Assembly (NCBI GenBank): GCA_009746045.1
Contig: RPFO01000819.1
Coordinates: 684,382-748,381, forward strand
Direction of reading: 5' to 3'
DNA from: Mesostigma viride
Taxonomy: Eukaryota; Streptophyta; Mesostigmatophyceae; Mesostigmatales; Mesostigmataceae
DNA length: 64,000 bases
The translations under genes were made by a program, and so were the position numbers. The notes below the pieces were generated by a model. The model was given only the letters and a program-made list of their open reading frames with translations, searched no databases and had not been told where the DNA came from. Every line of letters begins with the position of its first letter. Within the stretch, counting starts at the first letter, position 1. This document shows positions 6,260 to 64,000 of this stretch, in pieces.

Positions 6260-6534
6260 CACAACATCACGCGCAACCCATATTGACATGACGCGCGCAG
6301 CAATTACAGAAAAACGAGTCGGAATATTACTACAACTTACAGAACAGGGCCCATTGACGAACTTGTCTGCATTAGGTGACGCCCTCCACCGTTGCGATAC
6401 TGGCGGCCGGCCAGGTTCCCAGCTTGGATTATTTGAGGCCGGCTTGCCGGACGAGCTTTGACAATGCAAATCGGCCTCATAAGGCAGTACAGGAGGAGCA
6501 GAAGCAAACTGGCCACGACAGGTGACATTGTCAT

Positions 6535-7242: not shown

Positions 7243-7455
7243 ATGTTCAACAACAACACAACAACAACAACAACAACAACTAAACAGCTTCAAGCACGGC
7301 GCGGCGCTCCAAGAACTGGCGCGGGCCACGTGACTGCGGTCCGTTTTCTCGCGCCAGCCATTTTTTCTCATGCCAGCCAATTTTTGGCGCCGCAGCTGCC
7401 GCAGCCATTTTTCTCGCGGAAGCCATTTTTCTCAGACAACCCCACACGCTGTACG

Positions 7456-9882: not shown

Positions 9883-11242
9883 AGGGGACAATGCCCCTTT
9901 TGTGGCGAAGGGGAGGCTCTCGTGTCTGGATGGTTGTCTGCGACGCCAGAGCGCTTCGTCTGGTTTTTGGGGTGGTCTGGCTTTTGGGGTGGTTCGGTTT
10001 TTGGGACCTTGTTTCCTGTTTGCGTGGGGGTGCCTTAACAAAGCCTATGGCGCCCGTTGACAAGGACCTCCTCATGGGGCAGAGGGCAGTGTGTGGGGCA
10101 GTTGCGGGGGCCAGTGGCTGCCACCAGCATCTGTGAGGCAACCAAGAGTCAACCAGCCATGTATATTTGGCCTGAGCTCGCCCCTGCTGGGCGTTGCCTG
10201 TGTGACGAGCGTGAATGGCCATGACACGCGACAGCTGGTCGCCGCCACCGGGTCATGCCCCATGAGTCGCTGGTGGTGTGTCACTGTACATATTACAATG
10301 TACATATTTCGGGAGAAAAGACAGCAGAAAGATCTGATAAAAACAGAGCTGCAAAAATGCTTTATAGGTTGAACTGTGACCTGCTGTGCGGCACGGTTCA
10401 AAGTGTGGCGGCATGGAAATTTGCCCCAGGGGCGTATGCAGCGTGCCTGAGTTTTCCCTCTTGGCGTTGCCACGTCCGAGGTCCCTGCCATTTTCTTTGC
10501 AGCAGGGAGGATTTGCGAGTGCCTCGGCCAGACCACGGAGCCCTACCCGTGGGGAAAGAATAAGTCACGCCATGCCAGGGGGCTGCTGGCTGCTTGTGTG
10601 CGGCGGTGGCAGCGATGGCATACCCGCGATGGCATGTGTATTATAGGTTGTTTCTTACTTTTGGAATTAGATCAACAGGCCGCGGTCAGTTGTTTTATGT
10701 ATCAGTTAGTCTGGCTGTGGCCAGCATGCTTCTTGCTTCGCAAAGCAAACAAATTGGTCATGACAGTGTGTAGTGCAGAAATGTAGATGTTGAGCTAAAA
10801 ATTTTAGTTCCCTTGTGAGCTGGGTGGCGCACAAGATGCACCCTCTGCATCTTCCAGGGTTATGGATGCAATATGAGTCCATGACACCCATGGTAATTCT
10901 TTATATTGATCCAATAAGTGAGACAACCGATGGTCGCCCCTGCCTTTCCTCCTCTTGTAGCGTTTGCTACCAGTGAGAAATGCAATTTGTCGCTGGCTCC
11001 ATATATTTTATTGATGATATTTTTCTTGATTTACACGAAACGGCATGTGAAGTTCTTTCATAATCGAGAAGTATGCGATCGCTCATGCGCGTCGTGTCAA
11101 CACATCCATGACCAAGATAGACCTGTAAATATTCATATTTCTGAGGCAAACTGGATGGTTCCAAGGACGGTCAAATAAACAACCTTGGGAAAGCTTCAAG
11201 CACGGCTGGTACTCACATGCAAGCTAAACTACTTTATGTGAA
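9883..11242. other. Intergenic DNA downstream of HSF
   Basis: No gene recognised. The stretch probably includes the HSF 3' UTR, and otherwise shows only short chance ORFs. Confidence 0.5.
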
Positions 11243-31190: not shown

Positions 31191-31823
31191 GCTATGCCCG
31201 GGTAAGGGGGGAGCATGCCTGTGAGGGAGGAAGATCATCATGGCTATACAGGAGCTAGGACATGGCTTCTCGACAGAGAGCATCTCTCTGCATGGCATAG
31301 CATGGCTAAATTCTTAATGCAACATCCATGGGGGTCCCATTATAGACAAAGCATGGCTAAATGTTGAAGGCATCATCCATGGGGGCCATTATGGGCGCAC
31401 ATGCGCGTGGGCCACATGCTAGGCTAAGCCTTACTAATCTACACTACTGGTATATATATTCCTAGTCTGAGGTGGCAGGAGGGGGCTGCCAGGGCTTGTG
31501 GTCAACGTGGATGACCGCCCCCCTCCAGTATACCGGCTTCCCCCTTGCGCTCTGCCGGAGCTGAAGGTAGGTCGGCCATAGCTCGCGTCGCCGTTGTTGC
31601 TGGGCCAGGGTCAAGTCGTCGTCCAGCGTGAAGCGAGTCTCCGAGAGCTTCTTGCGGCATTTAAGGAACGCCAGCTTGTCCGCCATGTACTTAAAGGTGA
31701 GGAGCACGGGTGCCGGGCCAGCCTTGCCCCGCGCGCGGGGGAGGCGGACAGCCGACATGTCCAGCTCACCAGTGAGTAACATGGGGGCAAGAATGGCGCG
31801 CTTAAATGCCTCAAGAAGGCTCG
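31036..31823 (-). mobile_element. LINE C, 3' part (downstream of the 10.1-kb insertion)
   Basis: Minus strand carries the last part of ORF1 (AFKRAILAPMLLTGELD, LPRARGKAGPAPVLLTF, TLDDDLTLAQQQRRRELWP) to a stop at 31,462, then a short 3' region and tail. ORF2 is missing. The ORF1 sequence continues directly from the 41,955-42,959 part once the element at 31,824-41,954 is removed. Confidence 0.85.
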
Positions 31824-31878
31824 GAGTTGTTGCGCTGGATTAGGACAAATTGCGAAATTTAGGACACTTTTGATGCCG
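31824..31878 (+). repeat. Left terminal inverted repeat and subterminal block
   Basis: 31,824-31,854 is the inverted repeat; 31,858-31,878 holds the TTTAGGACACTTTTGATGCC block that also occurs, same orientation, inside the right end. Confidence 0.85.
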
Positions 31879-32552
31879 ACTCAAGATAATAAGTTGATTT
31901 GGGTCCCTTTTACGGGCCAATATGTGGCTGACATTGATTCCCTACGTATTCAACTGTTTTCAACCTATTTGGTACCACCCTGCAGGACATTTACCGGGTG
32001 ATGCTCGTGACGGTGCCCTTCATGATGTCATGCTTACTTCCATATAATGCATGAGCGTGGACACGATGACTTTAATGCGCGGAACGTGATTGTATTTGCC
32101 AGGGAAGTGTACCATGCATGCAGTAATTTCATACAATCTTCTCGCATAATGCATGAAGTCCTCCCCGGGCATGGAAACATTTCAATACCAACAATGAATT
32201 TTGAGGTAGTGATGTAGCATGCATGCACTTGGGTGTACTGTCAGAGCTATTGGTGCTAACACATGCCGCCAATTATAATGGCCAAGGTGCATGTATAATA
32301 TTTTAAAATGTCCAAAGAGACATTGTTGGGCGTGCATGGCTAATAACGCCCTTATTATCAATCAGTCCAATATCCTGGACTAGACAGCTCCGCGGCTTTT
32401 GCGCCGAGTTCCTCTTGAACAAATTATACTCTAGCCTACCATGACCGGGACGCCCAGATAATTAATAGCATGTTGCATCCGTGCAACACATAGCCTAGAT
32501 ATAGTGTCAATGGAATGCCATATCAAGAAACGGTTGCTTCACATGAAAACGG

Positions 32553-34795
32553 TCAGTAGTAACGAGGTTGCGGCAATGGTGCCGGCTGCCATGCCAATGT
32601 CATCGAGGGAGGCTGCTGCCAAGCGGCAGCCGCTGATGTCGCCGGTGCCGGTGGCTGTTGGTACCATCCCGCGGCTGCAGTTGCTGGTGGCTGCGCGTAT
32701 GGTGCCGGCGTGTATGGTGCCGGCGCATACTGTGGCTGCGTCAACGGTGCCGGCGCGGTTGCCGGTGCCAGGACCTGCTGGTACCATCCTAGTGCTTGTG
32801 CCGGTGGCTGCGCATACGGTGCCTGGGCGGCTGCCGTTGGTGGCGGGTAAAGCGGTGCCGCCGCGGGTGCCGGTGGCGGCGGGTAATAAGGCGGTGCCGC
32901 CGCGGGTGCCGGTGGCGGCTGGTAAAGCGGTGCCGCCGCGGGTGCCGGTGGCGGCGGGTAATAAGGCGGTGCCGCCGCGGGTGCCGGTGGCGGCTGGTAA
33001 TAAGGCGGTGCCGCCGCGGGTGCCGGTGGCGGCTGGTAATAAGGCGATGCCGCCGCGGGTGCCGGTGGCGGCGGGTAATAAGGCGGTGCCGCCGTGGATG
33101 CCGGTGGTGGCGGGTAATAAGGCGGTGCCGGCACGGCTGCTGGTGGTGGCAGGCAAGGCGGTGCTGTCGCCGGTGCTGGTGGTGGCAGGGCTTCTGGCGG
33201 CGGGGCCTCGGCTGCCGGTGCCTGCTGCTGCCGCCTCCCCTGTCGTTGCTGCTGCGGCGGCGGCTGCTGTTGCTGTTGCTGTATTTGCTGCATTTGCTGC
33301 AGCAGCAGCCGCTGCTGTTGTTGCTGCTGTTGTTGTTGCTGCTGCAACTGCTGCTGGAGTTGTCGGTGCTGCTGCTGGACCTCTTGCAGAAGCTGGGCCT
33401 GCTGCTGTTTCATACCCTCCAGTTGTGCCTGCACTTCTGTTGGTACTCGCGTTGTGCCGGGCAGGGCCTCCTGCAACGGCTGCGGCCCCGGGCGCCGTTT
33501 CTCCGGCTGGCGCTTCTTGGCATCTGGGGGGGGGGCTGGAAGGCCTGCTTGGCGGTGATTCGCTTCGCTCGCCCTAGCCCGGCGTTGGTGATATCCGTGA
33601 GCGGTGCCGGTGCCGCATCGGTCATGGTGGTGTCTTGTGTCCGCCGTTCTCGGGATGGCGTATCAGGAGAACCACACAGATCCATCGTGGCCCGCTGCGG
33701 GAATGCGTTACTGAGCAGGATGCTTGGGACGGGCGCATTGCCCATCAGGGCAACTAAATTGGGCTCGTTCTCCTGGGCCCACGTCAAACACTCCTGCATT
33801 TCATCATTCCATGCGTTTGCAGGGATGGATTTACCCGGAAACGTTACACCAGGGACATCGCACCACTTGGGAGGGTTGTTGGCCACGATGAGTGCCACTT
33901 GGTTGTGGAAGTGGATGCCGGTGGGTGCGGGCCTGGTCATGGAAGGAGTAAACGAACATAGCAACGACTTGTAGCTCGAATTCTTCGTTTCGCGGGCTAA
34001 CAGAGCGCTCATGGTCTTGTTTTTCCAGCCGCCCAAGATGATGCCGACATTTTGCCTCCATGGGTGAAGGTTCACGACGGCCCGAGCCATGATCCCGCAT
34101 TCGGCCCTAAAACCAGGAACCCCGCCCCCCACAGATATGGTGCTCTCATTTCGACCTTGGACCGGCATTGTCTTGAGCACCGGTGGATCAGGTGAAGGAA
34201 ATTTCAATGTCATCTTGGCATCCTCCAGCTCGGAGCGACTGAACCCTTTGCCACGCTCGTCGGCCGGGGTACTTTCCATCACGTTGTCAATGGAATTGTC
34301 CCCCGTCAGGTCGGAGGAACCCAGGTGTGCACCACGGCTGGCCGGATCGTCATCGCCACTGTCGACCATCTTGTCGTCACTGTCATTCTTGTCGTCACGG
34401 TCCTTTTTATCCCCGGCAACCTTGCCCTTCCCGCCCAAATTACTATGAAGATCTACCATCCCCGCCAGGTCATCCTCGGAAACTGGAGCATTAAAGTTGA
34501 TGCCGGCCGGGAGGGGGGGACGTGGGTTGTTGCCGACATGATGAGTCGCTTCCTGGTCTTGCTTGGACGACCCAGCAAAACATTCGGGGCACATCCATTC
34601 TGCCCCTTCTTCAGCACTTGGGTCCTTGAATAGCCCCGTGCATATCCCATGGACGTGCTTTCCACACGACCCACTGCATGGGTGATTGGCGCCACTCAAG
34701 AGCTCCTCCTTAGAAACGCCATCCTCGGATGCTCCGCCTCCCAATTTCCTACACTTTTCGCCTGCAAAGCAGGCATCACCGTTGCTCTCTGACAT
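32553..34795 (-). CDS. Transposon PHD-like zinc-finger protein with polyQ and Pro/Tyr repeats
   Basis: ATG at 34,795. Residues 9-72 form a PHD-like C4HC3 pattern: C9, C15, C40, C44, H49, C52, C69, C72, with the typical Trp two residues before the last CxxC (WMCPEC). A Lys/Asp-rich acidic linker follows, then a probably folded unit, about residues 200-390 (ECGIMARAVVNLHPWRQNVG, HFHNQVALIVANNPPKWCD, WNDEMQECLTWAQENEP). A C10 run (G on plus, 33,526-33,535) breaks the frame: as written the ORF stops at 33,410. One base more would continue it into LQEALPGTTRVPTEVQAQLE, a polyQ coiled-coil segment and tandem PPAPAAAPPYYQP repeats to a stop at 32,553, about 747 aa. Homopolymer error or real mutation cannot be told apart. 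It may read chromatin or assist the transposase; that is inference. Confidence 0.7.
32850..33140 (-). repeat. Coding tandem repeat (Pro/Ala/Tyr) in the PHD-like gene
   Basis: Seven or so units with core CCGCCGCGGGTGCCGGTGGC on plus, coding on minus for PPPAPAAAPPYY. Units vary between 39 and 45 bp in multiples of three, so the reading frame is kept, as expected under coding constraint. Confidence 0.8.
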
Positions 34796-35991
34796 TTATT
34801 ACTCACTTTTCCGCAGCACTACTCATTGCTTCCGGCATTATCGCCAACAATCGTTTAGCCGCACCGAATACCATCGTTTCCGGCGTTAAATTCATTCCAA
34901 GACGGAGGCACTGGCTGGAGCCCCGGCTCAGGCGGGAGATCCGGCGTTTGAATGAGGTGACAGTTGCGGATCCCAGGCATTATAGTATCTCCGAAGCCAG
35001 GCTTCGTGTCCGTTTCCTAGTACAAGGCATCGTATCTCAGACAAGTATCGCAGACAAGGTTTTCCCCAGCGGAGGCCAGGCATCGTATCGCCGCGGACAG
35101 GTTTTTCCATAGCCGAGGCAGGCAACGTATAAATTATTCCCCAGCCGAGCCTGCCGAGGCCAGGCATCGTATCTCCGCGGACAAGGTTTTCCCCAGCGGA
35201 GGCCAGGCATCGTATCTCCGCGGACAAAGTTTCCGTAGCCGACACAGGAATCTTATAAAATATTCCCCAGCCGAGCCTGCCGAGGCCAGGCATCGTATCT
35301 CCGCGGACAAGGTTTTCCCCAGCGGAGGCCAGGCATCGTATCTCCGCGGACAAGGTTTCCGTAGCCGAGGTAGGAATCTTATAAAATATTCCCCAGCCGA
35401 GGCCAGGCATCGTATCTCCGCGGACAAGGTTTCCCCAGCGGAGGCCAGGCATCGTATCTCCGCGGACAAGGTTTCCGTAGCCGAGGCAGGCAACGTATAC
35501 AATATTCCCCAGCCGAGGCCAGGCATCGTATCTCCGCGGACAAGGCTTCCCCAGCGGAGGCCAGGCATCGATACAGTAGCTCGACCTAAACTGTACACTG
35601 TAACCTGATGTGCGTGAGAGGTACGCCGAAGGCATGATGATTGTCTGTCAAGCAACGCCACGCTGTCATCAGTGCTATTACAATGTCTTAAAGAGGTGCT
35701 GCAGGTGAGACAACCGGCTGCTAATAATCTGCTGTAGCGTTTGTTGTGCGAATTAATTTTGCAGGGGACGAATCATTGGTATGAAATGCGGATGCTATTA
35801 AATGGTGACAGAAGCAGACAGGACCTAGACTAGAGGTGGCCAATCTACGTGACATAACCAGTTGTGGCTAGGTAGTAATGGTAGGGTAGCTGCGTCCAGG
35901 TACCTTGGTTTGAAGTTTCTAGTATCGCAGTCTGTTGGGAATCCAGGTTGTTGCGTTTACAGATAGGGAGAATGCTGACGGAGTAGGCACA
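34796..35991. promoter_or_regulatory. Divergent intergenic region of the transposon with tandem repeats
   Basis: This 1.2 kb separates the two divergent genes and should hold both promoters. About 35,015-35,575 is a tandem array of GCCAGGCATCGTATCTCCGC plus GGACAAGGTTTCC units with interspersed ATTCCCCAGCCGAG blocks, more than ten in all. Such an array could be a transposase-binding region or a simple expansion; nothing decides it. Confidence 0.5.
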
Positions 35992-38900
35992 ATGGGCGAT
36001 GACGCAGTGGATCCGGATGTGCTAATGTGGGATGGCAGATTAGATGACGGGTGGGATGCCGACGATCCAGATTACGAATTTTCATTCCACGATGGCGTAC
36101 AGGAACCGCCAACTGAAGCCAAACGTCCTGGCAAGCAGAGATTAGACGCGCTTCGTGAGCAGAAGCTGGCTGCTGTTACGGGCGACATGGCGAAGCGGTA
36201 TTGTTGCACAGAGCAGCGCTGCCTTCACCAGTTTAACAGTTACCTCGTAGACCACAGGACCTGGACAGCCGTGCGCCAGGAATTTTACAGCCATCCTGAC
36301 AAGGCGCGCATGGCAACCCTGGCTGACATCATCCGATCAGGTGGGGTAGGCAGCATTGAGGTGAAGCCCCCCGGCCCAGGTGGTCAGTACCACCACATCA
36401 GATTCAAAAGTCCATTGCATGTGGATGTGCACGTCGACGGCGCCACGCGCACCATCAGCGGGTGTGCGACTGCAATCCGCAAAGTGTTGGGCGTGGAGCC
36501 AAAAACCTGGAACAAGGTGGTGAAGGGGGTCGCCTACAGCAAGCAGTTTTTCGATGCGGTGGACCGTGACACCCTGACCAGTCATGGATTGCCGGGTGTG
36601 TGCCACGAGGAGACTCCGCGCCGGACGCCTGTCGCTGGGCGCTCTAGTGCCACGGAGTACGCTGCTACCTGGATCTGCCGGCTGGTGAGCGAACTGGGGG
36701 ACAGCGACCCCGCCCACCCGGATGTTGCCTACATGGATGTTATCCCCATCACCGACATGCACCAGCTCTACGTGGCCGATGCCAAGCTCGAGTTCCCTGG
36801 AGATGAGTATAATAGAGGCCGCTCGATGATCCTGAAGTACCGGGCGTTCCATGAGGTGTGGACCGCGTTCTGCGAGGGCAACTACTTCCAGGGGTCGCCC
36901 AAGGTCATCTTGAAGACGAGCGCCAAGAACGTCGGGCAGTGCGCGACCTGCGTCGAGTTGCGGCACCTGCACACCCATGCGTCGGACAAAGCACAGCGGA
37001 ACTACATCGCTCATCTCACCAAGGCACACCTCGCCCTGGTGAGGTTTGCGCGCCAATTGTACTGGCAACGGCGCGACTTGGCCCTGCTGATGCTCTTGTG
37101 GATTTCACTCTGCATTGACAAGATTGACCATGCGAAGACGTACTTTCCTAAGCTGGTCAACGGCCCATCCTCCTGGCAGTCCCACGCGAAGAGCATGGTG
37201 CAGTTTTCACTCTTCTGCGTATGCGCGCACGCGTACAAGGCATTCTGGTTTCCCGTCCTGCCATGCGTGCTCCTAGATGAGGGCCTCTCAGGTAGCGTCA
37301 CTGTCACGATGCTGATGCACGTGTTACTATGCATGATACGTGATGCCCCGTGGAGGCGGCTCGGCAATAGAAGCATGCCACGCTGCCTAGTCCTGCAAAT
37401 GGACGGCGGTTCTGAAAACCGCAACTACACAGTCCTTCTCTGGGCGTGGTGGCTCGTCCATGTGGGGCTCTTTGACGTGGTGGAGATGCACCGCATGCGG
37501 CGAGGGCACACGCATGCAGACTGTGACCAAAAGTTCGGGGTGCTGGTCGGGTACATGGACCACGGCGTCGGCGCGAGAGCAAAGAAGTCCAACATATTCC
37601 CCACGATGGAGAGCTGGGAGCAAGCAATTCGAGACGCGTTCCACGGCATCAGCAACGCCACGGTGCCAGAGGGCGTGGATGTGCAGTGGCTGGGTGAGGT
37701 ATACGATGTCCAAGCGTTCCTCGTGTGGCTGAAAGCCTCCAAGTTCGAGAAATGGTGCAGGTCACGCGACTGGTGCGCCGCGGTGGGGAAGGAAGAGTCT
37801 GAGAAAGTAGGGCAATCTATGAAGCCGCACCATGTCGTGTTCTTCAAGGTGGTGGGAAATGACGAGGTGTGGATGGCGTACCGCTTCACCGAGTCAAAGC
37901 GAACTCCATGGCAGCCCGCTGGGGTGCGCGATGAAGACGCGCCGCGGAGCGGCAGGGCACGCATGCACCCCTACAAGCACGACGACGCGGGGAAGCCTCT
38001 GTTCGGGGTCCGCGTGGTGGATCCGGACCTGGTCGCTAATTTGGAAGACACTCCCAAGACGGCGCCACTCGACATGCGCTTTTTTGACAGGGAGCTCGTC
38101 AAGATCCAGAACGCGGTGGCATCCCTGCCCAGCAGCTGGCAGTCCTTCTTCAATGCCACGGACATCCAGCCCACCGTCAAGTTTTTGAAGGAGGCTGAAC
38201 AGTTCCCGGACAAGATGCCCAAGAAGTTGCAGCCTTTGCCATGGCCAACGCGTGCAGAAATCGCAGCAATGCGTGATCGTGAGGCTGCCGCGGCTGCGGC
38301 TCAACCGGCTGTGACCCAAGCGGACATCACAACAGCCCTCATTGACGAGGCGGCGCTCCGGGCAGCGCCGTTGGTAGACCCTGTCTGCCACGATGGTCGC
38401 ACGCGTGCGGAGTGGGTGGAGGAAGACCGCGCGTTTGGGGCCAAGGTGGCATTCGAGGAGCGCCTCAAGGGCGTGCAGGCTGGCTCGCCTGTTATATACA
38501 AGCATCCCAATGCCGACATGCTCTGCAACTCTGAACTGCCATGGACCCCTGTACTGTACGGGGAGGTGAAGGAGGTGCATCAGGGCAGCGAGGAGGGCGC
38601 TGAGCCTCATCTTGAGGTGTACGTGTACCGCGCCAAGCACTTGCGCGACTCGTGGCACCCATGGATACCTGACGTGGCTGTATGGCCGCATCCACCATCT
38701 GCCAACGTGGACCGCCACGTGGTGACCATCCCGGCATCGGCCCTTGTCCTCACCCATTGGGCGCCACCCAGCAAGCGGAAGTCCCTTCCCGTCCGCTCAG
38801 TGTCCTTGGATGCTAAGAAGAAGCTCACCAAGGACAGTTGGAACGCGCTCAAGCTGGTGCCATGTGACGCAAGTCGCCCTGCTATCGACTGGCAAGCGGT

Positions 38901-39367
38901 CTCCACCACAGCGGGTATGAGGCGCCTGACTGGAACACGCTGGGAGGACATTTTGAAGGCGGTGAAGAGCGGCGGGCGCTGCCTGGTGGGGCAAGTCGTG
39001 TGCCAGTGGGCAATCAAGCACGTGCGAGACGAGCATGGCAACCTGGTGAAGAACCAGAAGGAGAGGTTCCATGGCCGCGTCGCGGTCGTCAATACCCAGC
39101 ATGACATGGTGGGCCTATTCTGGGGTGCGCATTGGGAGGAAGAGGCCGTGAGCACCGTGGCACTCCCTGAGCTAGGAGGAGTGATCTGTGCATGCCCAGG
39201 TGTTAAAGTCCCTGAACTTCAGGCATCCGAGATCGCCAGGGCTGAAGACTACCTACGCGCACACGCCGCCGGCGCGCCGGCTGCCAAGCCTACCAACCGT
39301 TCGCGCGCGCGCGCCCGCGGCGCGCAGGCTGCTGCTGCGGAGGAGGCGGGTGGGGTTGACGAGGACG

Positions 39368-39457
<90 letters not shown>

Positions 39458-40282
39458 GTGAGGAGGAGGAGGAGGAGGAGGAGGAGGAGTCCTGAGGAGG
39501 AGGAGGAAGAGGAGGGGGAGGATGACGATGAGGACGAGGATAAGGATGATGATGATGATGATGAGGAGGAGGAGGAGGAGAAGGACCGCTCACGCACATG
39601 CACCCGCGGCGCGCCGGCTGACAGGGCTAAGAACCGTTCGCGCGCGCGCACCCGCGGCGCACAGGAGGAGGAGGAGGACAAGGACGAGGAGGAGGAGAAG
39701 GACCGCTCACGCGCACGCACCCGCGGCGCGCCGGCTGGCAGGGCTAAGAACTGTTCGCGCGCGCGCGCCCGCGGCGCACAGGAGGAGGAGGAGGACAAGG
39801 ACGACGAGGAGGAGAAGGATCGCTCACGCGCACGCACCCGCGGCGCGCCGGCTGGCAGGGCTAAGAACCGTTCGCGCGCGCGCGCCCGCGGCGCACAGGA
39901 GGAGGACGAGGAGGAGGAGAAGGACCGCTCACGCGCACGCGGCGCGCCGGCTGGCAGGGCTAAGAACCGTTCGCGCGCGCGCGCCCGCGGCGCACAGGGG
40001 GAGGAGGAGGACGAGGAGGAGGAGAAGGACCGCTCACGCGCACGCACCCGCGGCGCGCCGGCTGGCAGGGCTAAGAACCGCTCGCGCGCGTGCGCCCGCG
40101 GCGCACCGGAGGAGGAGAGGGAGGAGGAGGAGGAGGACCGCTCGCGAGCATGCGCCAACGGCGCAGAGGAAATCGAAGAAGAAATGCCGCGTGGCTTGCG
40201 CCGCACGCGGGCAAACAAGGCTCAGGTCTTGTCGGATAGCGACAGTGGTGGCGAGGCACCAGCGGAGGCATTGGAGGCGTGA
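35992..40282 (+). CDS. DUF7869-like protein, candidate transposase of the 10.1-kb element
   Basis: First ATG at 35,992 (MGDDAVDPDVLMWDG); open to 39,495, 1,167 aa. An N-terminal Cys pair region (RYCCTEQRCLHQF), a Gly/His segment and SGCATAIRKVLGVEPKTWNK precede CATC (C317, C320). Then CIDKIDHAKTYFPK (D376, D379), QMDGGSENRN (D471, E475) and GHTHADCDQKF (D510, D512) follow in the order I remember for DUF7869 proteins (IIDGMDQ, LDN..EN, GHTHEDIDQ). Aspartates spaced this way suggest an RNase-H-fold DDE nuclease; that is inference, since the family is uncharacterised. A basic/acidic tail (NRSRARARGAQ) meets a GAT/GAG run where the frame changes. The same RSRARARGA repeats continue in another frame to a stop at 40,282, so the original protein was probably about 260 aa longer. 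Confidence 0.75.
39369..39490 (+). repeat. GAT and GAG triplet run at the frame change
   Basis: About 29 GAT codons (polyAsp) then nine GAG codons (polyGlu), ending in the TGA at 39,493. The downstream repeat arm is open one frame away, so a non-triplet indel near 39,490 is likely. Confidence 0.85.
39590..40140 (+). repeat. Coding repeats of Arg/Ser and Glu blocks
   Basis: Six units of DRSRARTRGAPAGRAKNRS plus RARARGAQEEEE, about 100-120 bp each, with lengths in multiples of three. They extend the C-terminus of the DUF7869-like gene in the shifted frame and resemble charged nucleic-acid-binding tails. Confidence 0.75.
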
Positions 40283-41900
40283 TCGTCTTGGTCTTCAATC
40301 AGCACGTGGTAGTAGTTTTTTTTTTTGTCGCCGTGCAATTTTGCTTTCTTCATATGTGATGTGTGCCATGGACATTTCTCCGGCTGGCTTTCTGCATAGA
40401 TCTGACACGTATTGGATTCACTGGCAACATATCTTGTATATTACCATATACAATTGACAATGTGTGTTGTTCTTGTCTTTATCCTGCTGTTGCGGCTGTT
40501 ATATGCTGTTGCGGTTGTACCACTGTCCTGAACTCATTCCCTTCGTGCCATTCACGCTACCGTGTTTGCTACTGCCACTTATGCTCCGTGGTTGCCCATT
40601 GCGATTCCAGGGATCATGGATGGGGCCAGTGCTGAGGAGGGGGGTTGCACGTGGAATACGTCTCTGGTGCTGCAAGCATTATTAGCTGCATCTTCACGTG
40701 TCGCTGTTTTTTATTCTTGCACATCATGGCTGGTGGGGCCTGCGGGGGGCTGGGCTCCGACATATTTTGTGGCATATATGCCAAACCATTATTATGTTTC
40801 ACCGTTACTTCCCTCCCACCTGCCTCGGCCTTGTGTGCCAGGCAGGGGACGAACCGGTTTTACTGACATGCGTGACTGAAGCGGTGTCGGGACGTAGTAT
40901 TCCACAGGGAGTGGCAATGTCTCTTCGAAGCCACTGGGTTAGATCAGATGCCCGGGCCAGGGTTGCATTTCCAGGCCTGTATGGCTGGCTCCCCTGCATG
41001 GCTAGCACTTGGATCTCCCAAATTTGATCAGTCAACTGATTTGATGCTTTGACAACTACAATGAAGTTATAATGGCTGGGTCACCAATGATGTTATGACT
41101 CGTTGTCATCACTGCAAGCAATGTGCTATAGTTGCTGCAACCCTCGCGCACTTGCAATGGCCATTGAACATGCGTTAAACCACTATGCGCCAATTTGCTC
41201 TTGCCGCGTGCCGTAACTGCCCGAGTGCCACGGTCTTACATCATCCTTGCTACCGGTGCTATTGCGGACACACTCGTGATTCATGCACTGAACCGTTGTT
41301 TGCTTCTGGCACTATTGCGTTTTTATAAACCGCGTAGCTAGCTAGCTGCTGCCGTCGCCATTAGGCGGGGCGATGATGCTCGTTGCCGCTCCTTGATTCA
41401 ATTGGTGCCCACTGCGGTTGCTCCCAAGTAGCATCCATCTTTGGTTCAGTTTGTTGTGATCAGTCGAGACGCATGGGAGCTTGATCCAACACATGCATTG
41501 TTGGTATATAACATACTCCGCAAAGCCGCGAAGCCGCGACCCTGTGCGTTAGCTAGCAGACCTGGCGGCACCTGTGATCCTAATACATGGCATAATCCCG
41601 CGTGCAAACTTTGCCGGACTCAGCATGGTCTCTCCACTGAATTGATATTGATACATGCATGAAAGATGTTTATTTCAGCCAGACAATGAATTATGAATGC
41701 ATTATATGTATTATAATCATAGGATCTCAGCATCTTCAATCATGATGCCATGTCGGAGACAGTGTGTATAGCAAATATGCATTACAGCATGGAATACTTT
41801 CCTTGAAACACAAGCGCTGATTAAAATTTCTTGACAAAACTTGTTAAAACATATTCTGAAATGCTCCTGGCATAAAAAAACCATGTTTGCCAACTTTTCA
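40283..41900. other. Non-coding right arm of the 10.1-kb element
   Basis: No ORF with family resemblance. A T10-12 run lies near 40,317. Likely 3' UTR and transposon-internal sequence up to the right end. Confidence 0.5.
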
Positions 41901-41954
41901 TTTAGGACACTTCTGATGCCTTCCGCAATTTGTCCTAATCCAGCGCAACCACTC
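41901..41954 (-). repeat. Right terminal inverted repeat and subterminal block
   Basis: 41,924-41,954 is the inverted repeat (reverse complement starts GAGTGGTTGCGC). The TTTAGGACACTTCTGATGCC block at 41,901-41,920 is in the same orientation as the block at the left end. Confidence 0.85.
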
Positions 41955-43105
41955 TCGTGGAGGTCTCACCTGCCTGCTGGTCGAAGTGCTTGACGATGAC
42001 ATTGTGGCTGCGCCGCGCGATGTCGGCTTGGAACCTCGCGAAGGTCGAGGGCTTGTTGCTTGAGTTGTGCCGAGATGGTGGAGGTGGTGGAGGTGGTGTG
42101 CTGCTTAAGCAAGTCCGCCCAGGTGGAGGGAGCATCGCCGGCCGGGCCAGCAGGCGCCGGCTGGGCGGCGAGGTCCTTCACCGCCTGGGCGGTGAGGCCG
42201 GCGGTGTCATGCAAGCTCTCAAGGGCGTTGGCGGTGGCTTGAAGGCGGTGGTCGAGGTCGAGGAGCTGGGCTTTGATGTCGGCAGTGGAGGCGGAAATGG
42301 CAGTGGAGGTGGAGGCGGCGGCGGTGGAAATGTGAGGAAGTTCAGCAGTCAGCGTGCCGCCGATTGCTGCTATGTCGGCAGCAAGGGGGGTCACGTGCTG
42401 CTGAAAGGCTTCCGTGAGGATGGAACGGAATGCGGGGGCGGAGATGGATGGAGCCCAGATCTCGCCGTCAGACTTCTGGAGAAGAGAGTTGAGGACGGCG
42501 CCGTTGGAGTTGGGGGCGGGGACACCCGAACATCTGGCTGATGTTGTGCCAGCGTCGGCCGTCGTCGACGAGGAGGCGTCCAGTGGCGTGGAGATGGAGG
42601 CACAGGTCGTAAAGCGAGGCGTAGTCCCCGAAGAAGATGTGATGCATAGCCTCACTCGGAGAAATGGTGGTCCAGTCGTAATCATCGACCTGGAAAGGTT
42701 GGGGCCGAAAGCGCGGTTCCGAGAAGCGTGTTTCCGCCCAGCGTGGCCCTCCAGTTTTGTCGGCGGGGCGGGCGCGTTTAGGGTCAGGCGATGCCGATGG
42801 CGAGGCATTGAGGCCGGGAGGTTGCTGGGCGACCACCAGTGCACGACTAGTGTCACCGCTGCCTGCCGGATCTGGCGAAGCGGCAGCCTCAGCTGCCGCA
42901 TTGTTGAAGGCGAGCGCATCCGCCAAACTGCGTTGCGTCGACGGGCGTTTGCTCGTCATATATTGCGTTTTAGATTCGGAAAATTATATCAGCATGTGCG
43001 TCTTAGAAAGACGAAGCGATAGTGATATTCACGACTAAATTCGGTGCTCAAACGTGAAAGTTATGAGCTCCGACAGCCATGGCTACCTCGTGGCTCGTGG
43101 CTCGT
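41955..43105 (-). mobile_element. LINE C, 5' part with ORF1 N-terminal portion
   Basis: Minus strand: 5' UTR matching LINE B (CTCATAACTTTCACGTTTGA near 43,060), then ORF1 from 42,959 (MTSKRPSTQRSLADALAF), with basic DPKRARPADK, AAIGGTLTAELP and a coiled-coil stretch LLDLDHRLQATANALESLH. Frameshifts occur near 42,500 and 42,060. The reading reaches HNVIVKHFDQQAGETST at the insertion site of the 10.1-kb element. Confidence 0.85.
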
Positions 43106-56977: not shown

Positions 56978-57040
56978 GGGTGGTTTTACCGGATTAGGAT
57001 ACATTTTTTTGTCTAGGATACATTTGATGCACTGTGCAGT
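56978..57040 (+). repeat. Left end of a second element related to the 10.1-kb transposon
   Basis: GGGTGGTTTTACCGGATTAGG, then ATACATT, a spacer, and TCTAGGATACATTTGATGC. It aligns with GAGTGGTTGCGCTGGATTAGG, ACAAATT, TTTAGGACACTTTTGATGC of the element at 31.8 kb, including the subterminal block at the same distance. It begins exactly where LINE E homology stops. The right end is not in the window. Confidence 0.65.
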
Positions 57041-57519
57041 TTTCAGATGTGTTTGTGGGGGTTGATTGCGCCTAGCATGCATTTTATTGAAGCAATGAGT
57101 TTCCCAAGATATACATTATATAAACTAAGACAATTGACCCATTAACGCAATGAGACAACATCAATGAGACAACATATGCCAATTGAAGGCTGCCCGCAAC
57201 TTTATTCCAAGTTCATTATTATATGATTCCAAGACCGTACATCTTCAAGATATAGCACTACAGACACCCACGCGGCTTCCGCGGTCATCACGCTCCTCCT
57301 CCAAGACAACTCAACCTTACAGGACGTTGGGCCATCATACGTCCGGAATAATTGTGTCACTTATTACATAACCAAACTTTTTGAGGGATCGCCATGGTTG
57401 CATGGTTTCAACACATGCGCCCTGCACTCATGTGCATCAAAGGTGTTGCGTAGTGCCAACTCAGTGTCAAAGAACTGATTCAATAATATTTCCCGTATGG
57501 CCATGAAGGCCCACATGAG
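57041..57519. other. Interior of the second element, no gene seen
   Basis: No ORF with family resemblance. Short direct repeats of AATGAGACAACAT lie near 57,148-57,175. Confidence 0.4.
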
Positions 57520-57599
57520 TTAAACATGGCCGAGAGTGATTGCATCATCCTTCTTGGCGACATCGGTCTTGACGACGTCGATGGGGAAGACGGCAGCAC
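57520..57599 (-). CDS. Possible terminal exon of an unknown gene
   Basis: After an acceptor TTCACATGCAG (minus, 57,600), the reading GAAVFPIDVVKTDVAKKDDA continues as ITLGHV to a TAA at 57,520. Composition is protein-like, unlike the flanking repeats. No upstream partner exon was found; the family is not recognised. Confidence 0.25.
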
Positions 57600-57785
57600 C
57601 TGCATGTGAACAAAAGAATCCATGAACTGTGGCATCCAAAGGCAACAACATATTAGCATCCCATTGAACACGAAGCCACGCTGACCCGGCCATCCAGCCG
57701 CCCACGCAGCCACAGAGCCAGCCAGCCACGCAGTGACGCACCCACCCAGCCACACATCCACGCATCCACGCACCCCGCCACCCCC

Positions 57786-58470
57786 CCCCCCCCCAGCCAA
57801 CCACGCAGCCACGCAGCCACGCAGCCACGCAGCAGCGCAGCCACGCAGCCACACAGCCACGCACCCTCCTTTCCAGCCACGCAGCCACGCAGCCACGCAG
57901 CAGCGCAGCCACGCAGCCACACAGCCACGCACCCTCCTTTCCAGCCAAGCAGCCACGCAGCCACGCAGCCACGCAGCCACGCAGCCACGCAGCAGCGCAG
58001 CCACGCAGCCACACAGCCACGCAGCCACGCAGCCACGCAGCAGCGCAGCCACGCAGCCACGCAGCAGCGCAGCCACGCAGCCACACAGCCACGCACCCTC
58101 CTTTCCAGCCACGCAGCCACGCAGCCACGCAGCCACGCAGCCACGCAGCCACGCAGCCACGCAGCCACGCAGCCACGCAGCAGCGCAGCCACGCAGCCAC
58201 ACAGCCACGCACCCTCCTTTCCAGCCAAGCAGCCACGCAGCCACGCAGCAGCGCAGCCACGCAGCCACACAGCCACGCACCCTCCTTTCCAGCCAAGCAG
58301 CCACGCAGCCACGCAGCCACGCAGCCACGCAGCAGCGCAGCCACGCAGCCACACAGCCACGCAGCCACGCAGCCACGCAGCAGCGCAGCCACGCAGCCAC
58401 GCAGCCACGCAGCCACGCAGCAGCGCAGCCACGCAGCCACACAGCCACGCACCCTCCTTTCCAGCCAAGC
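57786..58470. repeat. CAGCCACG octamer minisatellite with higher-order structure
   Basis: Tandem CAGCCACG units with periodic CAGCAGCG variants, and a CACCCTCCTTTCCAGCCA spacer recurring about seven times. All minus frames are open with the same 8-residue period (VAAWLRGC), giving artefact ORFs of about 300 codons. Confidence 0.93.
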
Positions 58471-58564
58471 AGCCACGCAGTCACACAGTCACACAGTCAA
58501 ACCCCCCTACACCCCCCCCCCCACACACACACCCACCCCACCCACTCAACACTACACGAATGAC

Positions 58565-58700
58565 TCACAAAGAACTGCTGCACCACCGATGATCCCTGCG
58601 GGAACTGCTCTGCTGCCGACGGTCCCTGCGAAAACTGCTGCAGTGCCGACAATGCCTGTGGAAACTGCGACATTGCCGACGCTGCCTGCGGGAACTGAAG

Positions 58701-58772
<72 letters not shown>

Positions 58773-58809
58773 AGTTGTTGCTGCAGTTGCTGCTGCAGTT
58801 GCTGCTGCA

Positions 58810-58854
<45 letters not shown>

Positions 58855-59202
58855 GCTGGACCACTTGTTTCTGCACCTCTTGACGCAGCTGCAAACCAAG
58901 CTCTTCAACCTTCTTGCTTTGGTTCTCCATAGCTCGTTGCATCTCTCTCATCGTCTGTTCCACGCCCACCAGTACGGGGGTCGGCGGCGGAAGCGGCTGG
59001 GTACGCTCTGGCTGGGTGCGCTCTGGCTGCCGTGCAGGACCTTGCCACATCGGCCGGCGCATTGGTGGTTTGCACCGGCCAAAAAATCTACTTTCATGGC
59101 ACCAGATTTCTTTCCTAGCACCCATTTTCTACAATCGTCCCCGGCATAACACAAATCAATCAATTCGTCCATGTCATCGCTTCGGCTATCAGCATCGGGC
59201 AT
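58565..59202 (-). pseudogene. Decayed PHD-like/polyQ gene of the second element
   Basis: ATG 59,202 begins MPDADSRSDDMDELIDL, then CYAGDDCRKW and FLAGANHQCAGRCGKVLHG, matching CFAGEKCRKL and LLSGANHPCSGSCGKHVHG of the gene at 34.8 kb. The second half of the PHD pattern and the central domain are gone. After a frame change, a Gln-rich coiled coil follows (MQRAMENQSKKVEELGLQLR, then a long polyQ encoded by a GCT/GCA array at 58,700-58,852). The reading stops at 58,565. Orientation relative to the left element end is the same as in the intact element. Confidence 0.65.
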
Positions 59203-59380
59203 AGTTCCCGTGGCTAGTGCCCATCATTCTTTCCACCTTGAGCGGGGCGAAGTCACGAATTCAAGCGCGAAGTGCATTTGAATCAAGCGGGAACTGGGTG
59301 ACACTGCTTGAAGACGTGCAGCTCCAAGGCATGCAAATGATGCAATGTATGAAAGATACGATACGCAAAGTTCAGGTGTT

Positions 59381-60385
59381 CAGGTGAAGCCGTGAAGACG
59401 TGGTGAAGACAGGTGAAGACGCGGTGAAGACGTGAAGACGTGAAGACGTGAAGACGTGAAGACGTGAAGACACGATACGGCAAGTTCAGGTGAAGTTCAG
59501 GTGTTCAGGTGAAGCCGTGAAGACGTGAAGCCGTGAAGCCGTGAAGACGTGGTGAAGACAGGTGAAGACGCGGTGAAGACGTGAAGACGTGAAGACGTGA
59601 AGACGTGAAGACGTGAAGACACGATACGGCAAGTTCAGGTGAAGTTCAGGTGTTCAGGTGAAGCCGTGAAGCCGTGAAGCCGTGAAGCCTGAAGACGTGG
59701 TGAAGACAGGTGAAGACGCGGTGAAGACGTGAAGACGTGAAGACGTGAAGACGTGAAGACGTGAAGACACGATACGGCAAGTTCAGGTGAAGTTCAGGTG
59801 TTCAGGTGAAGCCGTGAAGCCGTGAAGACGTGAAGCCGTGAAGACGTGGTGAAGACAGGTGAAGACGCGGTGAAGACGTGAAGACGTGAAGACGTGAAGA
59901 CGTGAAGACGTGAAGACACGATACGGCAAGTTCAGGTGAAGTTCAGGTGTTCAGGTGAAGCCGTGAAGACGTGAAGACGCGAAGACGTGAAGACGTGAAG
60001 ACGTGAAGACACGATACGGCAAGTTCAGGTGAAGTTCAGGTGTTCAGGTGAAGCCGTGAAGCCGTGAAGCCGTGAAGCCTGAAGACGTGGTGAAGACAGG
60101 TGAAGACGCGGTGAAGACGTGAAGACGTGAAGACGTGAAGACGTGAAGACGTGAAGACACGATACGGCAAGTTCAGGTGAAGTTCAGGTGTTCAGGTGAA
60201 GCCGTGAAGCCGTGAAGACGTGAAGCCGTGAAGACGTGGTGAAGACAGGTGAAGACGCGGTGAAGACGTGAAGACGTGAAGACGTGCATGCAAGGTATCA
60301 AAGATACGATACGCCGCAAGTTCAGGTGAAGTCGTGAAGACGTGAAGACGTGAAGACGTGAAGACGTGAAGACGTGAAGACGGTG
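59381..60385. repeat. GAAGACGT octamer minisatellite with higher-order units
   Basis: Runs of GTGAAGAC(G) alternate with CACGATACGGCAAGTTCAGG and TGAAGTTCAGGTGTTCAGGT blocks, repeated about six times at roughly 150-180 bp. Short GAAGACGTGAAGACC remnants reappear at 61,609-61,660, after the LINE, which suggests the LINE inserted within the array. Confidence 0.92.
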
Positions 60386-61610
60386 ATTGGATCAGTTTTT
60401 ACCCAGACGGGATCACATCCACATGCAAAGGTCTGGTCCGGGGAGTGTTGCCTCCGGCCGGAATTCAAGTCCAAGTGGCCGACACCCTTCCAGGCCACAA
60501 TGGTTGCCTCAATCAGTTGGCGACTTTATGTGTCTGTCTTCCAGCCCACCAATGTCACCGTATCCGGATGGTCCCGTGGTTAGTATCAAGGTCCTGCATG
60601 TTCCAGCCGGACCCCACGACCCCGGCGGAGGCCATCACTTGGTTACACGTAGGCAATACGAGATTGGATACTTTACCATTGGACCCCCTGGAATTTGGCT
60701 GGACCCTGACCAAGGGGATGTCTAGGATCAGCAAATGTCTTTACGAGTACACGGCAGAATGGGGTTATGACATTTTATTGCACGAGAACCATAAGCTCCA
60801 CCCTGGCCGCCCACGATGGGGCTTTCAATGGCCTGGATATAGTTGGATTAAACTTATCACCCTGGCGGTCGATCACCCTTTGGTGGACCGCAGAGCGACC
60901 GACATTCAACATCTTTTACTGCACAGAGCCATCGGGGTAAACGCGACCCTCAGCAGCCGGTTTCACCACGATGCGACATGCCTGTGCACCTTCCCTTCGG
61001 AAACAATTGAGCACCGCTTTCTCTACTGCCAAGTGAGCGGGGTGTGGCAATGGTTGTTTAACGTATGGTCCGCATGGACCGCGCTACCACATTCCACACT
61101 AACGCTATCCGTGCGTTGTATCATATTCGGTATGGCGGGGACCCCCGGGGAGGAGCTATCCGACAGTCAACTAGCCTGGGTATGGCTCCGAACTAATATG
61201 CTATACGCGATCTGGACTATCCGGAACGAGACGGTTTTCAAAGTGCGGCACGAATACACCAAAGCCGCCGTTGTGAGGCGGTTTATCTTCCTCTGGAACT
61301 CAGCAATGCGTCGCGCTTGGCTCTTGGCGCAAGAACAATACAAGGTGTGGGACCCCGGGCCCAACAATGACAGGCCCAGCCCCTTGGAGCTCTTCCATGC
61401 TCTCCTGGGACGCAACAGGGTGTTTACTTGCATTCCTCACGGTGACCTTACGCGCGTCACTTGGCTCCCCTGGTCACACAATGCTCCTTTCTAAACCTTT
61501 CACCTATCACACTACCCTCAGAGGGTAACCAGCTGGTCGATACGTGGTACCTCTTCACCTAATGATATTCCTATTGGTTAATAAAAATACCCATTTACCC
61601 GGAAAAGACG
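60386..61610 (+). mobile_element. 5'-truncated LINE of a second lineage
   Basis: Flanked on both sides by the GAAGACGT repeat and ending near 61,602 in AATAAAAATACCCATTTACC. Contains only the C-terminal part of the polymerase protein. Confidence 0.6.
60445..61494 (+). pseudogene. Reverse-transcriptase C-terminal region with zinc-binding domain
   Basis: An open stretch of about 349 codons with no proper start (the first codon here is GTG). It carries C-x-C-x8-H-x4-C (CLCTFPSETIEHRFLYC) followed by GVWQWLFNVWSAW, the pattern of the zf-RVT domain at the end of plant-type LINE polymerases, then an alpha-helical tail (WLRTNMLYAIWTIRNETVFK). The reverse-transcriptase catalytic part is missing, so this is a dead 5'-truncated copy, though its reading frame is still unbroken. 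It differs from the ORF2 ends of LINEs A-H. Confidence 0.75.
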
Positions 61611-62158
61611 TGAAGACGTGAAGACCAGGACTGTCACGTGAAGACTGGGACGTGAAGGCAAGTTGCAGCACTCGGCCGCTGCAGTCGCACGCAGGTAGAA
61701 ACGAGTATTGCTGCTTGAATCTGTCAAGACCCCATCGAACGTAAAACAGGTTTTTCGTAAAGAAATCCGATTTGTGGGCGGGCTTTACATATTGCTTCTG
61801 TCCAAGCACTACCGGATGTAAAACAGTATACTTCTTGAAGAAATAAGTTGGGGCTTTGTTGGGCGTCACATTTGACCGGTGGGCGGAGTTTCCTGCTTCT
61901 GTGAAGGCGCCATCGAATGTAGATCAGTAGATTTTCTAAAGAAATCTGAGTTGTGGGCGGGGCCTTTATTGCTTGTGTCCATCCACCACCGGATGTAGAA
62001 CAGTAGACTTATTGAAGGTGAATCACGATACAACAGCTGTAGTTGACAACATCATGACCGGCACATCTTTCCCCCACCGCTGCTCAACCCGGTCCCCCCC
62101 AAACTCCTCCACACTTGCCCACCTTTCCACCCTCCTCCACGGCCCGTTGTGTTTGCAG
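61611..62158. other. Intron-like sequence upstream of the CFAP299 exon
   Basis: Two diverged direct copies of a GTGGGCGGG(G/C)C...TTGCTT(C/G)TGTCCA...CACCGGATGTA block (about 61,776-61,822 and 61,952-61,998). A CT-rich tract precedes the acceptor at 62,158. No other exon seen. Confidence 0.45.
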
Positions 62159-62934
62159 GCGTTGGCACAAAGGGAGGAGGCCGTGCGAGCCGGGAAACTC
62201 ACGGTATGGTTTGATTTCTAGTTTTGTATTAGGACCCTAGGGTAGCTATGTTATATAGGCATGTCTGACAGCATAGCTCACCATTTCATTACCATGGGAT
62301 GCTGAGCATACCATTTCCAGAGAGGTAAGTCAGTCACTCTTCGCAGTTGACAAGTCAGAGAAAGCAATCAAGTGCAGCGTTCACAACTCTTGCCGCTCGT
62401 AACCTTTTGTCTGCCCGGTTTGGCAGCTCCCTGTCTTTGCTTTCTCTCGTATTTCTTTCTTTTGTCTCTTTTCTACATCTTTCTTTGCTAATTCTTGAAT
62501 ATATGATGCTATTGTAGCATCCTTCTAGCGCGGATCGCTCTTAATATCCTTCTCGCGCACGTTTCCTCGCTTTTTCTCATGTAAGAGCGTCTTCCCTGCC
62601 CATGCAGCGTGTACCTGGTGTGTGTGGCTCTGCCTTGCCAATCACAACTGACCGACATGCTGGTCAGGCACTGCAGGTCGTTGCCCTTGCGTGTGTGAAC
62701 CTGCTGTTTTGGCTGTTCCCATGGCCGCTGCGTGTGTCCGTGAATGATACCATGGGAGGGAGACTTCTCCCATGGGTCCCCTTCGCTGACACTCGTGATG
62801 TAGGTTCGCGTCGACTTGTTTCTCTCACTGTGCCCATATTGGCCTCGCACGGCTTTGTCTCTCATTCCTTGTTTGCATGCGGCGGCGTGTAGACCATCAT
62901 CTTCATCCGAGACCGCAACAGCAAGGGCCAGGAG
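62159..62934 (+). CDS. CFAP299: CFAP299 (C4orf22)-like cilium protein, two internal exons
   Basis: Exon 62,159-62,203 (acceptor GTTTGCAG, donor GTATGG) encodes ALAQREEAVRAGKLT. Exon 62,893-62,934 (acceptor GTGTAG, donor GTGAGT) encodes TIIFIRDRNSKGQE. Both are phase 0 and together match the conserved core of CFAP299/DUF4464 proteins, remembered as 'LALREE..R.GKL..IFIRDRN..GQE.SGYIDYAHRL'. The next exon (SGYIDY...) should follow but is not seen before the GC-rich minisatellite, so the gene continues beyond the window. Upstream exons were not found; the second transposon, LINE and octamer arrays may lie in one of its introns. The protein is known as a cilia/flagella-associated factor, so the organism should make flagella. 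A short match, but distinctive. Confidence 0.6.
62207..62892 (+). other. Intron of the CFAP299-like gene
   Basis: Pyrimidine-rich in part (62,400-62,490), with no additional exon recognised. Confidence 0.4.
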
Positions 62935-63117
62935 GTGAGTAATTGCTGAGGGCATGGCTCCTATCCCTTGATGAGTCTAGCGCCATGTACCACCCTCTAT
63001 GCCTGCATATAGGTGACGCATTGAAAATGCAAGCATCTTACTAGAAGTAGCACGGGCCTCCGAGGTGAGATTTTGCGCAGGCCTCATGATCCCAATGGAC
63101 CTGCGAAGCGCATGGCG

Positions 63118-64000
63118 CGCATGGGCGGCCGGCCGGCGCAGCTGGCATGCGGCGGGGCGGGGCTGTCGACGGGCGGCGGGGCAGGGCCGTCGGCGCGCGG
63201 GGGGCCAGCGGCGCTGCCGGTGCGCGCGGGCGGCGGGCCGGCGCACCTGGCATGCGGCGGGGCAGGGCTGTCGACGGGCGGCGGGGCGGGGCAGTCGACG
63301 GGCGGCGGGGCAGGGCCAGCGGCGCTGCCGGCGCGCGTGGGCAGCGGGCCGGCGCAGCTGGCATGCGGCGGGGCGGGGCTGTCGACGGGCGGCGGGGCAG
63401 GGCTGTCGACGGGCGGCGGGGCAGGGCCGTCGGCGCGCGGGGGGCCAGCGGCGCTGCCGGCGCGCGCGGGCGGCGGGCCGGCGCACCTGGCATGCGGTGG
63501 GTCGGGGCTGTCGACGGGCGGCGGGGCGGGGCAGTCGACGGGCGGCGGGGCAGGGCCGTCAGCGCGCGGGGGGCCAGCGGCGCTGCCGGCGCGCGTGGGC
63601 GGCGGGCCGGCGCAGCTGGCATGCGGCGGGGCGGGGCAGTCGACGGCGGCGGGGCGGGGCAGCCGGTGCGCGGCGGGGCGGCGCCGTCGGCGGGCGGCGA
63701 GGTGGCGCAGCCAGCGCGCAGCGAGGTGGCAGCGGCGGCGCAGCCTGCATGCGGCGGGGCAGGGCTGTCGACGGGCGGCGGGGCGGGGCAGTCGACGGGC
63801 GGCGGGGCAGGGCCGTCGGCGCGCGGGGGGCCAGCGGCGCTGCCGGCGCGCATGGGCGGCGGGCCGGCGCAGCTGGCATGCGGCGGGGCGGGGCTGTCAA
63901 CGGGCGGCGGGGCAGGGCCGTCGGCGCGCGGGGGGCCAACGGCGCTGCCGGCGCGCGTGGGCGGCGGGCCGGCGCAGCTGGCATGCGGCGGGGCGGGGCA
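63118..64000. repeat. GC-rich minisatellite reaching the window edge
   Basis: Irregular tandem array built from GGCGGGGCAGGGCTGTCGAC, GGCGGGCCGGCGCAGCTGGC and GCGCGCGGGGGGCCAGCGGC blocks with a higher-order period of roughly 120-240 bp. Open minus frames rich in Pro, Ala and Arg are artefacts. Confidence 0.9.

Follow-up and report, generated by a model that had tools for sequence, protein, structure and literature searches.

A recently mobile two-gene DNA transposon of Mesostigma viride with a DUF7869 protein as its candidate transposase

We found a recently mobile DNA transposon of 10,131 bp in a stretch of Mesostigma viride DNA (NCBI GenBank assembly GCA_009746045.1, contig RPFO01000819.1, positions 684,382-748,381 of the forward strand; 64,000 nt, called the window below). 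The element occupies window positions 31824-41954 and shows the marks of a class II transposon of the type with terminal inverted repeats (TIRs), that is, the repeats themselves, a target site duplication of fixed length and empty sites. It carries two divergent genes. One of them encodes a protein of the Pfam family DUF7869 (PF25273), which is probably the transposase and would be an RNase-H-like enzyme with three acidic aspartates (DDD), while the other encodes a putative PHD-finger protein that may serve as an accessory factor. The features of the element are as follows.

31821-31823, no strand: target site duplication, left copy TCG; a single TCG stands in the empty-site paralog
31824-31854, + strand: left TIR, 31 bp, GAGTTGTTGCGCTGGATTAGGACAAATTGCG; 30/31 identical to the right end
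31858-31878, + strand: left subterminal block TTTAGGACACTTTTGATGCCG; the right block repeats it in direct orientation; same plan in families a and e
34795-33410, - strand: accessory gene with a predicted N-terminal PHD-type zinc finger (C4HC3), 461 aa; divergent from the DUF7869 gene
35992 (ATG)-39495, + strand: DUF7869 gene, candidate transposase, 1167 aa; Pfam match; ends in an acidic GAT/GAG repeat tail
36940-36963, + strand: conserved C..C pair ahead of the first Asp, CATCVELR; five-family alignment
37117-37140, + strand: first conserved Asp motif DKIDHAKT (D376); five-family alignment
37396-37425, + strand: second conserved Asp motif QMDGGSENRN (D471); five-family alignment
37504-37539, + strand: third conserved acidic motif GHTHADCDQKFG (D510 or D512); five-family alignment
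41901-41920, + strand: right subterminal block TTTAGGACACTTCTGATGCC, direct orientation
41924-41954, - strand: right TIR, 31 bp, GAGTGGTTGCGCTGGATTAGGACAAATTGCG; 30/31 identical to the left end
41955-41957, no strand: target site duplication, right copy TCG; matches the left TCG

An earlier note on this DNA, made from the letters alone, had described inverted ends of 31 bp with one mismatch, a TCG duplication and direct subterminal blocks, and all three descriptions were borne out to the base. With up to three mismatches allowed, the window holds just the two TIR sites listed above, and 0 were found in 100 shuffles. The subterminal block TTTAGGACACTTYTGATGCC sits directly inside both ends in the same orientation; TTTAGGACAC occurs on the + strand at 31858 and again at 41901, so the blocks are direct rather than inverted. 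The sequence TTAGGACA alone was rejected as a weak signal, having four matches, a number equalled in 4 of 100 shuffles.

We then investigated the insertion sites. An uninterrupted paralog of the window site, with one TCG, lies in the flank of another copy (L013) and is 92% identical to the window site across an 800-bp joint region. Empty-site paralogs exist for three further insertions, namely those of C887 (in L045, with a single ATG), C1406 (in L013 and in the right window flank, with a single TTG) and C1446 (at two places in the right window flank, with a single CTC). Two cases are less clear: a second paralog of the window site, in the left window flank, aligns on one side of the joint only, and a third paralog of the C1446 site, also in the left window flank, crosses the joint only with gaps beside it. 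All four insertions fall inside other repeats; since only insertions into repeats can reveal such paralogs, this location is no measure of target preference. Target choice by sequence looks loose. Joining the window flanks through one TCG leaves one frame uninterrupted through the joint; upstream of it, the long frame of the right flank is in another register. The flank frames that the element interrupts (31462-31839 and 41966-42955) presumably resemble ORF1 of long interspersed nuclear elements (LINEs), and they have no Pfam match.

A DUF7869 profile search of the whole assembly (440 Mb, 2,243 contigs) yielded 275 candidates, the best 150 of which were scored. The same profile had no match in any of 14 control genomes. 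Long flanks were analysed at 19 of the 150 scored loci, which fall into five families: 11 loci belong to the window family (family d), and two each to families a, b, c and e. The other 131 scored matches, including groups outside the five families, lie outside this flank sample. For the window family, 12 other profile matches had been grouped by profile range and score, and 10 of them were taken in (C2074 and C1591 were not). Two small regions added for diversity are family-a copies, and 3.5-kb pieces without ends (L004-L011) were kept out of the border analysis.

Among the 11 copies of the window family, eight have both ends, and seven of these eight are flanked by exact 3-bp duplications of seven different sequences; if each matched by chance at 1/64, even base use being assumed, at least seven in eight would be expected with a chance of 2e-12. 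Each of the 10 sister copies reaches 98.0-99.8% identity in its longest alignment to the window copy, and four are an exact match to it over the first 700 DUF7869 codons, indicating that movement was recent. With its exact ends, duplication and empty sites, the element at 31824-41954 is thus a real and recently mobile DNA transposon, as the earlier note had proposed.

The linkage between DUF7869 and transposon ends extends to the other families. At least one family-specific inverted end was found at all 19 loci examined and both ends at 14 of them; left out of the two-ended count were C1502, C1635 and C1690b (one end each), b2 (its left end present, its right arm inverted) and c1 (N at the right end). 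Thus, at the loci examined, the DUF7869 genes of this genome are transposon genes. The broader inference of the earlier note, that many database DUF7869 proteins would be such genes, holds for these 19 of the 150 scored loci. The note had also asked whether DUF7869 always lies between such ends with a 3-bp duplication, and this is true in part. Exact 3-bp duplications flank 12 of the 13 two-ended elements of families a, b, d and e (C1690a is the exception): TCG, ATG, TTG, CTC, ATT, TTC and TGG in family d, TAA and TCT in family a, TTG and TGC in family e, and CGG in family b. The ends are family-specific (GGGTGGTTTTACCGGATTAGGATACATTTG in a, GGGTGGTTTGTTTGGGTTAGGACAGATTTG in e, GAGGGGATTCATARGTGTTTGCTCAATTTCA in b and CCTACCAGCCATTTAGAATGTACTCCAGCAC in c), and one end sequence common to all families was therefore rejected. 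The elements of families a, b, d and e end in GRG..CYC (GAG or GGG .. CTC or CCC) and those of family c in CCT..AGG; families a, d and e further share GRGTKG termini, TIRs with a GGRTTAGGAYA core, and TTTAGGAYA as a subterminal block in direct orientation. Family c has the most distant protein, with 32% identity to the window core.

The window protein matches the Pfam DUF7869 profile with 53.6 bits (cut-off 26), and all five family representatives match it too. In a Pfam scan of 11 frames of the element (the two genes and nine further frames), DUF7869 was the sole domain above its cut-off. The proteins of the other families are 32-66% identical to the window protein over about 210 aa (alignment A4; L049 was excluded from alignment A5 owing to stop codons). 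The conserved block runs from the C..C pair through a hydrophobic stretch ending in Asp (IDKIDHAKT) and two more hydrophobic stretches to a TVTMLMH segment, downstream of which come a hydrophobic stretch ending in Asp (LQMDGGSENRN) and then GHTHxDxDQKFG. In the window copy the aspartates are spaced D376-95-D471-39-D510 (or 41-D512), and these Asp residues are invariant in one protein from each of the five families. Such an order and spacing of Asp residues is typical of DDE/D recombinases. Substitution between the families is constrained, with proportions of nonsynonymous and synonymous differences (pN/pS) of 0.28/0.64, 0.37/0.70 and 0.36/0.69 in three pairs (ratio 0.44-0.53), with synonymous sites near saturation; within families there are few differences, and the ratios range from 0.15 to 0.81 where both kinds occur. 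The frame is 1384-1508 aa long in six of the 10 sister copies. A GAT/GAG run at 39372-39495 encodes the acidic tail of the window copy, whose frame ends there, near 39495, and continues in several sister copies.

The divergent gene, conserved in families d, a and e, appears to encode a protein with a zinc finger of the PHD type. When one copy per family is aligned, C9, C15, C40, C44, H49, C52, C69 and C72 are invariant, and a Trp lies two residues ahead of C69; this C4HC3 ligand pattern is that of PHD fingers. The first Cys pair is C-x5-C instead of C-x2-C, and the Pfam PHD scores (17.4 bits in the window, 15.3 and 15.1) lie below the cut-off of 24. A Kelch domain is not among the Pfam matches of the partner, and no PHD gene came up in motif scans of families b and c. 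Within family d, the partner is 461 aa long in the window, C887, C1524 and C1668 and shorter in five copies, and its motif was not found in C1956 and C1690b; this variation suggests that many copies are damaged or that introns interrupt the gene. The earlier note had seen two divergent genes only. The two genes stand, with the caveats that the frame of the first is longer in sister copies and that the second may continue in another, Q/P-rich frame (32553-33662), which could form a single gene with the 461-aa frame. Between the two genes, where a shared promoter would lie, is an array of repeats of about 116-126 bp (AGGCATCGTATCTCCGCGGACAAGG, 35025-35580).

DUF7869 proteins are also known from other eukaryotes. 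Searches of IMG/VR by protein, end sequence and profile gave no confirmed relative (28 stretches matched a pattern, 0 confirmed), INPHARED and PLSDB gave no match, and one pattern-then-tblastn scan of 84,980 prokaryote genomes in GTDB gave 112 stretches matching a pattern, 0 of them confirmed. Three viral contigs matching the GHTH motif pattern were judged to do so by chance, their frames being 175, 43 and 39 aa long from stop to stop and otherwise dissimilar; in one of the three, L003, the frame also lies opposite a 932-aa frame. The term 'DUF7869' was absent from the texts of the 5.39 million papers searched, and no title or abstract opening found for related topics fitted.

The catalysis of DUF7869, its RNase-H fold and the role of the PHD protein are inferred. 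The DUF7869 protein would bind the 31-bp TIRs and the subterminal blocks, pair the ends and then cut. The 3' ends would be joined to the target strands at staggered positions 3 bp apart, and gap repair would yield 3-bp duplications that vary in sequence. An accessory role, probably in reading chromatin or in targeting, would fall to the PHD-finger protein of the divergent gene. Either cut-and-paste or copy-and-paste movement is compatible with the data.

For the earlier note's view that the DUF7869 protein is the transposase speak its being the only above-cut-off Pfam domain and its linkage to transposons; several observations weigh on the other side. The fold comparison with RNase-H-like DDE enzymes that the note had suggested came to nothing. 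AlphaFold models of a larger core (728 aa; 8 rows, several fragments) and of the DDD region (292 aa; 13 rows) reached a mean predicted local distance difference test (pLDDT) score of 46.2 and 40.8, too poor for the folds to be used, and with neither model did Foldseek find a match in PDB at E <= 0.001. The region of the first Asp was modelled as helical at very low confidence, unlike a DDE core; the order of strands and helices around the second and third Asp, in the same unused low-confidence models, fits such a core. Searches of Pfam, NCBIfam, PHROGs and, by sequence, PDB gave no transposase match. The PDB matches were mostly to the acidic tail or had E near 1, and Pfam at E up to 10 gave DUF7869 for five of five family members and three unrelated families for one member each (0.058-0.31), with no transposase. 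C1690b has the highest within-family pN/pS ratio (0.81), and b1 and b2 differ by three nonsynonymous and no synonymous changes. C1690a has both ends and no duplication, and family c (L042-L043) has, in its single readable copy, an apparent 5-bp duplication, GTATC, which speaks against the 3-bp rule being universal. Lastly, the loci were picked by DUF7869, which makes the linkage one-sided; elements with these ends and another transposase may exist.

How the element should be classified is a question in itself. Academ elements make duplications of 3 to 4 bp, and large elements with repeated subterminal motifs, a likeness to the window element, are typical of EnSpm/CACTA. It is possible, if rather doubtful, that we are dealing with a divergent EnSpm/CACTA-CMC, Harbinger/PHIS, Zator or Academ element, whose transposase would still be DUF7869, drifted beyond recognition. 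Duplications of 3 bp are known in EnSpm, Harbinger and Zator, according to excerpts of PMC12730594 and PMC10045372, but the GRG..CYC ends of families a, b, d and e, the absence of C(2)C and H(3-4)H from the stretch that separates the second acidic residue from the third, and the lack of a match to any Pfam transposase model argue against such a placement.

We judge it improbable that the element depends for its movement on a transposase supplied in trans from another locus, DUF7869 being a conserved gene with a passenger or regulatory role. Elements can bear accessory genes, the PHD-finger gene already being one here, and this explanation gains from the one-sided choice of loci and from the fact that the catalysis and fold of DUF7869 are deduced rather than observed. 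Yet in five families the DUF7869 gene is bracketed by ends peculiar to the family, and these include b and c, for which the motif scans gave no PHD gene; moreover, its ordered Asp triad is kept and the copies are recent. The idea of a host gene family lying near repeats by chance can practically be dismissed, as it is contradicted at the 19 loci examined, where nearly identical copies occupy unrelated places and show sharply defined ends, duplications and empty sites; it could hold elsewhere, DUF7869 matches being numerous and most of them outside the flank sample. A recently active two-gene transposon with DUF7869 as its transposase is hence the reading that we prefer.

The window holds a further element of a sister family.

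56978-64000, + strand: second, degraded element, sister family a; its TIR has one mismatch and CAG as flank; continues past the window edge

Nothing in it aligns to the DUF7869-coding part of family a (element positions 4741-7348). Its part at 60287-61609 has no alignment to family a and a weak zf-RVT match, and is perhaps a LINE piece. In family b, both ends of copy b1 (L036-L037) bear a 173-bp satellite, in arrays (joined coordinates 517-1331 and 9109-9915) of inverted orientation; in b2 (L038-L039) the right arm is inverted and includes about 14 satellite units. Such transposon-borne satellites could seed genomic satellite arrays.

If DUF7869 is a transposase, a Pfam family without an assigned function gains a testable one, and annotators could reassign a set of 'hypothetical' eukaryotic genes to transposons. 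The recent copies with long open frames offer material for testing transposase activity.

The partner protein of Harbinger is Myb-like, and the duplications of Transib are 5 bp, a difference from the 3 bp here. The published descriptions used below are excerpts of the papers cited. Repbase contains 20 superfamilies with a DDD/E transposase (PMC9587614). The EnSpm/CMCT clade has duplications of 2-5 bp, mostly 5'-CA..TG-3' termini, and Cys/His pairs that lie past the second acidic residue and before the last (PMC12730594). Our elements share the 3-bp duplications with EnSpm/CACTA (PMC12730594) and differ in their ends (GRG..CYC, or CCT..AGG in family c, instead of CA..TG), in the five proteins of alignment A4, none of which has C(2)C and H(3-4)H at that place, and in having a PHD partner and no Pfam transposase match. 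Harbinger (PHIS) elements have 3-bp duplications and a two-gene layout as well (PMC12477816, PMC12730594), whereas their TNA target pattern fits only one of the 12 duplications here (TAA), the partner here is PHD-like and not Myb/SANT, and both genes lack Pfam matches to the Harbinger transposase or Myb. Zator, which resembles ISAzo13 (PMC10045372, PMC12730594, PMC12477816), is also alike in its 3-bp duplications (PMC10045372), but neither Pfam nor NCBIfam gave a transposase match here. Rehavkus, of the MuDR group, has a PHD finger and a minisatellite ahead of one end (PMC6446971); it differs in its 9-bp duplications and in that the PHD finger is within the transposase. KDZ (Kyakuja-Dileera-Zisupton) elements are giant, have transposases that can exceed 1300 aa and are known from algae (PMC12477816), but Zisupton has 8-bp and Kyakuja 7-bp duplications, with CA..TG ends and no TIRs (PMC12730594), and no Pfam match links them to our element.

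The element lacks the ends, the motif and the target pattern that mark EnSpm and Harbinger, from which it is set apart by descriptions and not by transposase sequences, and there is a fair chance that it represents a new superfamily. Such elements may already be known to Repbase or Dfam curators by a different name. We regard it as an evenly balanced matter whether DUF7869 marks an unrecognised transposon group of superfamily level, with a DDD transposase, a head-to-head PHD partner, GRG..CYC ends, direct subterminal blocks, 3-bp duplications and a sister branch with 5-bp duplications. If it does, much of the database 'DUF7869' would be transposase. The closest parallel in layout is that of RAG1/RAG2 and TransibSU, in which the gene of a DDE enzyme stands head-to-head with a PHD-finger gene (PMC4411706, in excerpt). 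The partner here differs in having no Kelch domain among its Pfam matches, and no RAG1 chain was among the PDB sequence matches. We propose that the resemblance may be a likeness of working and not of kinship. The PHD partner offers a separate case for the study of chromatin readers attached to DDE recombinases, as in RAG1/RAG2, and, should the superfamily be real, a partnership of DDE enzyme and PHD protein like that of RAG1/RAG2 would have arisen twice.

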